Positions 50,749-54,910 of a DNA stretch of 64,000 nucleotides are shown here, piece by piece (within the stretch, counting starts at the first letter, position 1; every line of letters starts with the position of its first letter). A program made the translations under genes and the position numbers. Source of the stretch: an uncultured Polaribacter sp. (GTDB lineage Bacteria > Bacteroidota > Bacteroidia > Flavobacteriales > Flavobacteriaceae); the NCBI GenBank assembly GCA_913047375.1, contig CAJWTV010000005.1:1-64000 (forward strand), read 5' to 3'. The notes beneath the pieces were generated by a model, which saw nothing but the letters and a program-made list of their open reading frames with translations, did not search any database and was not told where the DNA came from.

Positions 50749-51438
50749 ATGAAATTTCCTGTAATAATTCCTTTTATTATTTCATTAATAACTTTTTATC
50801 AGTGTCAATTAAAAGAAAATAATATCTCTCCTGCTGAAGATATAATTTCTTATGAAATGCCTGTGAAAAAAGAAATTAAAAAAGCTTGGGATAGTTTAAA
50901 TAAAAATAATGTCACTAGTTTTTTTAAAGAATATGGTCAACAAAATAAGGACACGAAAGTTATAATAAAAACTGATTACGGGAATATTAAAATTAAATTA
51001 TACAACGACACACCTTTACACAGAGCAAATTTTATTTTTCTAACTAAAATCAAATACTTTAACACTACTGTTTTTTATAGAATTGCGAAAAACTTTGTTA
51101 TTCAAGGAGGAAATTCCGATAATTTTCAGACAGTAAAAGATAGATATAAATATGGTAATTATAAATTACCTAGAGAATTTAGAGAAAATAGAAAACATAA
51201 ATATGGTGCATTAGCCGCCGCAAGAAGTTGGAAAAAAAACCCACTTAAGGTATCTAGTCCATTTGAGTTTTATATTGTTCAAAATAGGAATGGAGCTCAT
51301 CATTTAAATAATGAACATACTGTTTTTGGTGAAGTTATTTCAGGATTTTCTACCATGGATAAAATCGCAAAATTAAAAGTCGGAGTTGACGAATGGCCAG
51401 AGGAAGATGTAAATATGGAAGTCGAAATTTTAGATTGA
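50749..51438 (+). CDS. Cyclophilin-type peptidyl-prolyl isomerase, probable lipoprotein
   Basis: A 229-residue exported PPIase: hydrophobic signal (FPVIIPFIISLITFYQC, Cys20, a weak lipobox), an about 50-residue linker, then a cyclophilin domain with VFYRIAKNFVIQGGN, a lysine-rich loop RYKYGNYKLPREFRENRKHK and a conserved FEFYIVQNR. Some catalytic positions are altered relative to CypA (for example the usual FHRVI is FYRIA), so activity may be reduced. It is upstream of prfC by 44 nt, but prfC has its own promoter. Confidence 0.86.
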   Translation: MKFPVIIPFIISLITFYQCQLKENNISPAEDIISYEMPVKKEIKKAWDSLNKNNVTSFFKEYGQQNKDTKVIIKTDYGNIKIKLYNDTPLHRANFIFLTKIKYFNTTVFYRIAKNFVIQGGNSDNFQTVKDRYKYGNYKLPREFRENRKHKYGALAAARSWKKNPLKVSSPFEFYIVQNRNGAHHLNNEHTVFGEVISGFSTMDKIAKLKVGVDEWPEEDVNMEVEILD

Positions 51439-53088: not shown

Positions 53089-54021
53089 ATGAATAATGGT
53101 ATATATGCAAAATTCACTACTTCAAAAGGTGATATTTTAGTAAAATTAGAAGAAGAAAAAACACCAGGAACCGTAGGTAACTTTGTAGCTTTATCTGAAG
53201 GGAATTTAGAAAACTCAGTAAAAGCTCAAGGAACGCCATATTATGACGGATTAAAATTCCATAGAGTTATTCCAGATTTTATGATTCAAGGGGGCTGTCC
53301 TCAAGGAACTGGAACTGGTAACCCAGGATATAAGTTTGATGATGAATTTCATACAGATTTAAAACACGATACTCCAGGGAAATTAGCAATGGCGAACTCT
53401 GGTCCTGCAACAAATGGAAGTCAGTTTTACATAACTCACATTCCAACCCCATGGCTAGACAATAAACATACTGTTTTTGGAAGCGTAGTTGAAGGGCAAG
53501 ATATAGTTGATACAATTGGACAAGGCGATGAATTAACTTCAGTGAAAATCCTAAGAATAGGTGCAGATGCGGAGAAATTCAACGCTGTTGAAGCTTTTAG
53601 AACTTTTGAAGGATCTAGAGAAGGACGTGAAGCAGAAGAAAAAGCAAAACAAAAAGCTTTGCTAGATACAGTTGCAGCAGGATATGATGAAACCGATAGT
53701 GGTTTACGTTATCAAATATTACAAAAAGGAACAGGAAAACAAGCAACAAAGGGTGCTGGTGTTTCCGTACATTATAAAGGTCAATTGTTAGATGGTACTG
53801 TTTTTGATTCTTCATACAAAAGAAAAGAGCCAATAGATTTTAATGTAGGTCTAGGTCAAGTAATCTCAGGTTGGGATGAAGGAATTCAATTATTAAAAGT
53901 TGGAGATAAAGCGCGTTTTGTAATTCCGTCGGACCTCGCCTATGGTGATGCTGGTGCTGGTGGAGTAATTCCTCCGGGTGCTACTTTAATTTTTGATGTT
54001 GAATTAATGGATGTAAAATAA
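53089..54021 (+). CDS. Dual-domain immunophilin: cyclophilin fused to FKBP
   Basis: A 310-residue cytoplasmic protein (no signal peptide) with two complete PPIase folds of different classes. Cyclophilin, about 5-160: FHRVIPDFMIQGGCPQ, MANSGPATNGSQFYI and WLDNKHTVFG carry the catalytic Arg, Gln and active-site loops. Linker with charged helix (about 165-205). FKBP, about 210-310: GVSVHYKGQLLDGTVFDSSY and ending PPGATLIFDVELMDV. Fusions of this order are known in Flavobacterium as CFBP-type dual immunophilins. Placed 13 nt behind prfC, ahead of a terminator. Confidence 0.93.
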   Translation: MNNGIYAKFTTSKGDILVKLEEEKTPGTVGNFVALSEGNLENSVKAQGTPYYDGLKFHRVIPDFMIQGGCPQGTGTGNPGYKFDDEFHTDLKHDTPGKLAMANSGPATNGSQFYITHIPTPWLDNKHTVFGSVVEGQDIVDTIGQGDELTSVKILRIGADAEKFNAVEAFRTFEGSREGREAEEKAKQKALLDTVAAGYDETDSGLRYQILQKGTGKQATKGAGVSVHYKGQLLDGTVFDSSYKRKEPIDFNVGLGQVISGWDEGIQLLKVGDKARFVIPSDLAYGDAGAGGVIPPGATLIFDVELMDVK

Positions 54022-54043: not shown

Positions 54044-54076
54044 AAAAGCTCAGTTTCAAAACTGAGCTTTTTTTTT
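54044..54076 (+). terminator. Terminator after the cyclophilin-FKBP gene
   Basis: AAAAGCTCAGT pairs with ACTGAGCTTTT around 6 nt, followed by a long T-run. It closes the prfC transcript. Confidence 0.9.
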
Positions 54077-54128: not shown

Positions 54129-54848
54129 ATGATGAAAAAAATTACTATTCTTTTATTATTTACTGCTTTACTAATCTCAAATAATAGTGTTGGACAAAAG
54201 TTCAATACTGATAAAAAATACACTTTTAAAATTGGAGATAATAACGGAATTGGAAAGTGGTACATGGGCAGAGAAATTGCCTATGTAATGGGATTTGAAG
54301 GAATTGGTTGGCTTGAAAGATCCGATCGAGAAAAAGAAGAAAATGTTTCTAATTTGATTAAAAACATGAGAATTAAATTAAATGATACTATTGCAGATAT
54401 TGGAGCTGGTTCTGGGTATCATGCTTTTAGGATGGCACCGTTAGCTAAAAAAGGCCTGGTTTATGCAGTGGATATTCAAGAAGAAATGTTAATGGCGATT
54501 GAAAAGAGCAAAGAGTCTCGCAAAATTAGAAATATTGAAACAATTCTAGGAAGTGAAAAAGGTGTTCATTTACCTAAAAATTCAGTTGATAAAATTTTAA
54601 TGGTTGACGTATATCATGAGTTTAATTTCCCTTCAGAGATGATTGCTTCAATGAAAAACGCATTGAAGCCCAATGGACAATTATTCTTAATAGAATATAG
54701 AGATGAAGATTCAAAAGTTCCTATCAAAAAAATACATAAAATGACTGAAAAACAAGCTGTTAAAGAAATGGAAGCTGCTGGTTTTAAACTTAAAGAAAAT
54801 ATTGAGAATCTTCCTTGGCAGCATTGTATGGTTTTTGTTAAAGAATAA
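54129..54848 (+). CDS. SAM-dependent methyltransferase fold protein with signal peptide
   Basis: A 239-residue protein that begins with a convincing signal peptide (MMKKITILLLFTALLISNN, cleavage about after VGQ at 23) and continues as a class I methyltransferase: motif I IADIGAGSGYHAFRMAPL, YAVDIQEEML, a KILMVDVYHEF post-motif and LKPNGQLFLIEYRDE. SAM is cytoplasmic, so an exported enzyme of this fold is puzzling. If the start were downstream, the first conserved motif would still be intact, so the signal could alternatively be a membrane anchor. It has a weak upstream -7 box and stands between a terminator and trmD. Confidence 0.85.
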   Translation: MMKKITILLLFTALLISNNSVGQKFNTDKKYTFKIGDNNGIGKWYMGREIAYVMGFEGIGWLERSDREKEENVSNLIKNMRIKLNDTIADIGAGSGYHAFRMAPLAKKGLVYAVDIQEEMLMAIEKSKESRKIRNIETILGSEKGVHLPKNSVDKILMVDVYHEFNFPSEMIASMKNALKPNGQLFLIEYRDEDSKVPIKKIHKMTEKQAVKEMEAAGFKLKENIENLPWQHCMVFVKE

Positions 54849-54902
54849 AAAACCTAATTAATTGAATAATAATAAAGTTTATTTATTCTTTAACAAAAAT
54901 CA

Positions 54903-54910
54903 TACATTTG
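54903..54910 (+). promoter_or_regulatory. -7 box directly ahead of trmD (leaderless position)
   Basis: TACATTTG, a perfect TAnnTTTG, ends 4 nt before the trmD ATG. Confidence 0.6.

Follow-up and report, generated by a model that had tools for sequence, protein, structure and literature searches.

Can a methyltransferase that depends on S-adenosylmethionine (SAM) work outside the cytoplasm, and if so, how would the methyl donor reach it? The question is raised by one gene in a 64,000-nucleotide stretch of DNA from an uncultured Polaribacter sp., referred to here as the window. The gene encodes a class I methyltransferase with an export signal, while SAM is, to our knowledge, not known to be available in the periplasm. 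The original prediction had offered three ways out of this puzzle, namely loss of SAM use, an uncleaved membrane anchor, or movement of a methyl donor across the membrane. Among these, export of the methyl donor by the cell came out as the most likely. The gene and its 5' features are as follows.

54129–54848, plus strand: ATG-initiated coding sequence for the putatively exported class I methyltransferase, 239 amino acids and a stop codon
54129–54194, plus strand: Sec/SPI-type signal peptide, residues 1–22 (MMKKITILLLFTALLISNNSVG), cleavage expected before Q23
54195–54197, plus strand: Q23, the expected mature N-terminus under the Q-rule, with pyroglutamate expected

The N-terminus of the window protein, MMKKITILLLFTALLISNNSVGQ, consists of a positively charged n-region and a hydrophobic h-region, followed by S20 at position -3, G22 at -1 and glutamine at +1. 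It carries the small residues and the +1 glutamine that define the Bacteroidetes Q-rule for Sec/SPI substrates, and the Sec-type export signal ascribed to this methyltransferase can be seen in its sequence. The "cleavable VGQ" of the original prediction was the right motif, placed at the wrong bond, as the predicted cut falls between G22 and Q23 (VG/Q). There is no cysteine in residues 1–23, which speaks against a Sec/SPII lipoprotein; many homologues, unlike the window protein, do have a cysteine closing the h-region. According to Bochtler and colleagues (PMC5837995), predicted signal peptidase I substrates of Bacteroidetes mostly expose a glutamine, on average 71% across species, which is later cyclised.

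The aligned relatives show a signal of this kind. In alignment A2, comprising the window protein and 64 of 69 references, the Q23 column holds glutamine in 65/65 proteins between variable flanking columns, and position -1 is glycine, alanine or serine in 63/65. Five references were left out: L040, L047 and L063, for which the ATG had been chosen too late, and L052 and L056, near kin of rows kept, which were set aside without a separate test. Hydrophobicity was scored over a larger set, in which 90 of 96 loci (L001–L016 and L031–L110) were kept by a core pattern, giving 84 distinct proteins. The best 12-residue value within the first 40 residues reached at least 2.0 in 74 of these 84, but in 0/30 UbiE control proteins, which were drawn from organisms of the same family and peaked at 0.93. 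Six of the ten remaining proteins scored 1.6–1.9, and the lower values of the other four (L006, L040, L047, L105) are attributed to start choice or to a longer N-terminal extension. The six loci that failed the core pattern (L014, L091, L095, L099, L101, L103) nevertheless have frames showing signals that end in Q. Two of these, L103 and L014 (Aureisphaera galaxeae), also have a long in-frame tandem repeat of SLITHHS units upstream of the methyltransferase gene.

The export reading would have been undermined by homologues that consistently start after the signal. Once the starts of four homologues with late ATG choices had been corrected, the family homologues read were seen to keep the N-terminal hydrophobic segment, and the search for the same architecture in Bacteroidota found signal and class I domain recurring across relatives. 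The earlier observation was right, if understated: members of this family as a rule carry a predicted export signal. A true start further downstream, leaving the enzyme in the cytoplasm and making the upstream segment an annotation artefact, is of almost negligible probability. Read by eye, the DNA of the window gene has no in-frame ATG, GTG or TTG after Q23 and before M46. In 66/70 homologues (the window gene, L001, included) the interval from Q+1 to the conserved block is free of start codons, so that restarting translation in the cytosol would cost the protein conserved residues. To the credit of the downstream start, a GTG does occur between cleavage site and block in 4/70 homologues, and two more distant relatives, L243 and L244, have no signal and look cytosolic; the signal-like N-termini of those family members that were read count against it.

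The family extends well beyond the source organism, whose genome (1.48 Mb, 68% complete) holds a single copy of the gene at E 0.001. A scan of genome contigs yielded at least 559 relatives, of which the best 80 were mostly from Flavobacteriaceae with some from Marivirga, Roseivirga and Flammeovirgaceae; family-bearing genera among these 80 include Winogradskyella, Maribacter, Polaribacter, Arenibacter and Marivirga. Fifty-two of 395 genomes searched in the phylum matched at E 1e-20, as did 59 of 195 at 1e-25 in the class of genome G280, which we take to be perhaps Rhodothermia-like. The loci fetched from these two genome searches and read numbered 76, including 8 duplicates. An N-terminal hydrophobic segment was present in 68/68 distinct deeper homologues (65 at 2.0 or above, the rest at 1.75–1.97), a count that leans towards signals as starts were placed relative to the hydrophobic stretch; seven distinct rows were given a GTG start and L184 was left without a start codon. 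The lipobox pattern was matched by 36 of the 68. Since the hydrophobic segment is universal in this set and the lipobox is not, lineages seem to exchange one signal type for another, a signal peptidase I site giving way to a lipoprotein site, with export retained, and export is, by this comparison, probably older than the signal sequence itself.

The same homologues bear on the proposal of an uncleaved N-terminal anchor, which would tether the domain at the periplasmic face or, with inverted topology, leave it in the cytoplasm. Lipobox matches in about half of the deep homologues indicate that tethering is tolerated, and a few, such as L181 and L187, show no obvious cleavage site along with their hydrophobic segment, so that an anchor is possible in those. 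For the window protein, by contrast, the conservation of Q23 and of a small -1 residue points to cleavage. Under the positive-inside rule, lysines before such a segment place the N-terminus inside and the C-terminus outside. Lysines do precede the segment here, so the domain would lie outside the cytoplasm even on an uncleaved anchor, which therefore does not solve the SAM puzzle. We consider this alternative highly improbable.

Homologues with N-termini judged signal-like by eye also occur on plasmids from other phyla. A cyanobacterial protein encoded on a Geminocystis plasmid is 45% identical to the window protein and a betaproteobacterial one from a Comamonas plasmid 41%, the latter being identical on three conjugative plasmids; more distant proteins of Methylosinus and Bradyrhizobium have such N-termini too. 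In a tree built from 85 chosen rows, the query family groups with the cyanobacterial and Comamonas rows (support 100/99). Viral carriage was rejected, as none of the 6 pattern matches in a scan of viral contigs was a relative.

More distant Bacteroidota relatives that combine a class I domain with a signal-like or lipobox N-terminus, judged by eye, fall into three groups on tree branches separate from the window family. Group B (L030, L245, L246, L255, L256, L258) has in most members a His-rich linker; it follows the export signal, as in KKHHGHGDG of L245, and is suggestive of metal binding. Group C (L017–L029, L257), found in Flavobacteriaceae, has motif I changed to DIGCHEG(Y), or DVGCHEGY in some, and carries a Q-rule signal. 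Group D comprises L247–L253, with L254 of unsure place. Generic labels of the type "class I SAM-dependent methyltransferase" can hide whole exported lineages. Among the matches listed in the open-access literature, no title or abstract start described such an exported family. As judged from sequence, the family is a putatively exported branch of the class I methyltransferases.

Whether the exported domain could still use SAM depends on the residues listed below.

54219–54320, plus strand: family signature, residues 31–64, YTFK.GD.NGIGKWYMGREIA.VMG....WLER (G40, R48, I50, W61 and R64 at least 97% conserved, n = 135)
54396–54422, plus strand: SAM-binding motif I, residues 90–98, DIGAGSGYH (D90, G92, G94 and G96 each 135/135)
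54471–54473, plus strand: D115, the acidic residue that closes beta-2 (D in 121 plus E in 14 of 135)
54612–54620, plus strand: Y162-H163-E164 after beta-4 (Y 135, H 134, E 135 of 135)
54693–54710, plus strand: E189-Y190-R191-D192-E193-D194, end of beta-5 (E189 134, E193 135, D194 134 of 135)
54735–54737, plus strand: H203 (H in 132/135)
54819–54824, plus strand: Q231-H232 (both 135/135)

Motif I, described as intact in the original prediction, is complete in the window protein from D90 to H98, and the SAM loop D-x-G-x-G-x-G is invariant in 135/135 distinct homologues. All 135 combine this glycine-rich loop with an acidic end of beta-2, as class I enzymes do; D115 is presumably the ribose contact. 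Y162-H163-E164 presumably lies on the active-site face of the fold, and the active-site residues as a whole (Y162, H163, E164, E189, E193, D194, H203, Q231, H232) are at least 97% conserved (n = 135). The Pfam domain Methyltransf_31 covers residues 85–210 (E 2e-14), and the protein scores above the cut-offs of both Methyltransf_31 (53.9 vs 27 bits) and Methyltransf_11 (50.8 vs 21.2 bits). An AlphaFold2 model (pLDDT 86.6), the structure prediction called for at the outset, has the Rossmann-like fold of class I methyltransferases, the signature block 31–64 being of moderate confidence (pLDDT 57–76). Its nearest neighbour is Aquifex 3dh0 (Z 23.4, rmsd 2.0, 187 residues); the next row has Z 19.0, and Foldseek ranks those two matches 1 and 2. 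The mature part is under purifying selection, with dN/dS of 0.09–0.17 in 6 pairs. Because the SAM loop is invariant, the active site nearly so and selection purifying, the proposal that the domain has lost SAM use is unlikely. The predicted SAM-type binding site is intact and strongly selected.

A subtler alternative keeps the fold and changes the ligand: the site would hold another adenosyl compound (SAH, decarboxylated SAM, methylthioadenosine or a nucleotide), or the protein would be an exported binder or sensor. Its attraction lies in the same absence of known periplasmic SAM from which we started, and class I folds with non-methylating roles do exist, the SpnF cyclase (4pne) and the RdmB hydroxylase (1xds) being among the fold neighbours of the model. 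SAM is moreover polar and poorly membrane-permeable, as described for mammalian cells (PMC8728568). However, it is not the SAM loop only that is conserved at 97% or more, but also the residues expected on the acceptor side (Y162, H163, E164, E189, E193, D194, H203 and H232), and catalysis therefore fits better than mere binding. We regard the alternative as unlikely, though it deserves more weight than the anchor.

The surroundings of the gene were searched for hints of function and of a SAM supply.

54044–54071, plus strand: terminator-like hairpin 5' of the methyltransferase gene (1 found; 0.4 expected in shuffles)
54825–54906, no strand assigned: inverted repeat with 31-nt arms, spanning the methyltransferase stop codon and ending just before trmD

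On the 5' side lie a release factor 3-like ORF, identified by eye, and a cyclophilin-FKBP fusion, and on the 3' side trmD. The fusion (53089–54021) puts prolyl isomerase domains of two kinds on a single chain, and a separate cyclophilin nearby (50749–51438) has a signal-like N-terminus. The arms of the repeat are 90% complementary and 20 nt apart, and its folding beats that of shuffled sequences (z -9.1); elsewhere in the genome only a 27-nt piece of it was found, with the repeat itself and its own other arm excluded. Among 8 relatives checked, a gene-end repeat was absent in 6, and L037 has an 18-nt repeat at the gene end. With the hairpin upstream and the repeat at the stop codon, the gene looks monocistronic within the window, as had been claimed. 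Counting the loci listed, window included, a same-strand ORF lies within 60 bp upstream in 26/78 and downstream in 13/80, so co-transcription is possible in some relatives.

No conserved operon emerged: the largest non-methyltransferase cluster of neighbours occurred in 10/81 loci (80 plus the window), in mixed orientations, and a scan of 53/61 operon-like neighbours gave no family in more than 2 members among the best 25 of 72 families. The operon was rejected as a guide to function for lack of a shared neighbourhood in flavobacteria, where the gene seems to act alone.

Outside the flavobacteria, the search of the class of G280 matched the methyltransferase in 11 genomes of families f44 and f54, and in 10 of these the gene is preceded on its own strand by a TerC gene, adjacent in nine and with one gene between in G634 (L196/L226); the TerC-methyltransferase loci are L141, L143, L188, L190 and L192–L197. 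Together with the conserved H/E/D cluster, this suggests a metal-assisted exported methyltransferase, in which manganese or another metal would be loaded in the course of export with the help of TerC and the cluster would form the metal site. The pair is kept in G419 and G617, two genomes of one genus that do not share the other neighbours, and TerC proteins metalate exoenzymes, loading Mn, in B. subtilis (PMC10550928). Most of the 10 genomes, on the other hand, have a larger gene block in common, and this lowers the weight of the inference; a tblastn search with one TerC protein over 222 loci and the window matched in 12 loci (10 genomes) only, none of them flavobacterial and none in the window; and H163 of the cluster is common to the cytosolic relative 3dh0. 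As a refinement of the exported, SAM-using enzyme, metal loading seems to us rather doubtful.

No SAM exporter was consistently linked across the loci. An EamA gene adjoins an exported methyltransferase in one Bradyrhizobium plasmid type only, the protein of which sits on a very long branch; at L115:2413–6552 the gene for a signal-bearing protein with a methyltransferase domain precedes those for an EamA transporter, an ABC ATPase and an FtsX-like permease, which might serve together to export a methyl donor. The Methylosinus protein is adjoined by an annotated amino acid permease. Being single cases, one of them on that long branch, these do not identify a SAM exporter by linkage and are kept only as leads.

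Taken together, we somewhat favour the view that the protein is an active SAM methyltransferase located in the periplasm or outer membrane and supplied with SAM that crosses the inner membrane. The Sec pathway would export it, signal peptidase I would cleave it ahead of Q23, the new N-terminus would probably be capped as pyroglutamate, and the mature protein would then fold in the periplasm or on the outer membrane. Because Sec moves unfolded chains, the enzyme cannot carry SAM along, and the donor would have to cross separately, which might occur through an inner-membrane carrier or by leakage; SAM transporters of the DMT type are known in obligate intracellular bacteria. In the envelope the enzyme would methylate a small molecule as a protective or processing step. 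Indirect signs favour such a substrate over protein or RNA, namely the fold, resembling 3dh0, UbiE and ArsM, the stand-alone gene, the patchy distribution and the presence on conjugative plasmids. A wider proposal, which we advance tentatively and would place slightly short of an even chance, is that bacteria of several phyla methylate with SAM outside the cytoplasm, exporting it to exported, possibly metal-loaded class I methyltransferases that act on envelope or incoming small molecules. Should these enzymes act at the site to which their signals direct them, SAM must be present in the periplasm, and this would imply a route of SAM export not yet described as well as methylated envelope products as a class. 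The window family offers a direct handle on the question of periplasmic SAM.

Among known systems, the Aquifex aeolicus SAM-dependent methyltransferase 3dh0, a solved structure whose title gives no function, is the best sequence match (E 1.3e-17; 3e-21 with the profile). Both proteins have motif I, the VYA.D.QEEM strand and H-E after beta-4. They differ at the N-terminus, since 3dh0 aligns only from query residue 51 and lacks both the signal and the beginning of the family segment, and after beta-5, where 3dh0 has a GPP region and the window protein VPIK..HKM. UbiE/MenG enzymes have the class I fold in common with the window protein and match it weakly by profile (TIGR01934, 39.5 bits vs a cut-off of 158.35), which excludes that identity; unlike the window family, the 30 flavobacterial controls have no N-terminal hydrophobic segment. 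The fold is also that of the ArsM arsenite methyltransferases, with 4fsd among the fold matches, but the score of 33.8 against the cut-off of 263 bits (NF008823) rejects ArsM as well. ArsM enzymes bind arsenic through cysteines, and these are not among the conserved residues of the window family. CmoB (TIGR00452) was likewise discarded, at 39.9 vs 275 bits. No NCBIfam model reached its cut-off among the best 25 of 42 listed or among the 20 of a second listing, thus no specific family name is visible among those models. The PilD prepilin peptidase/methyltransferase, compared here by description and not by sequence, is an integral membrane aspartic protease without the class I fold; by its description (PMC3584216), it is a bacterial methyltransferase acting on exported proteins, which is its point of resemblance to the window family.
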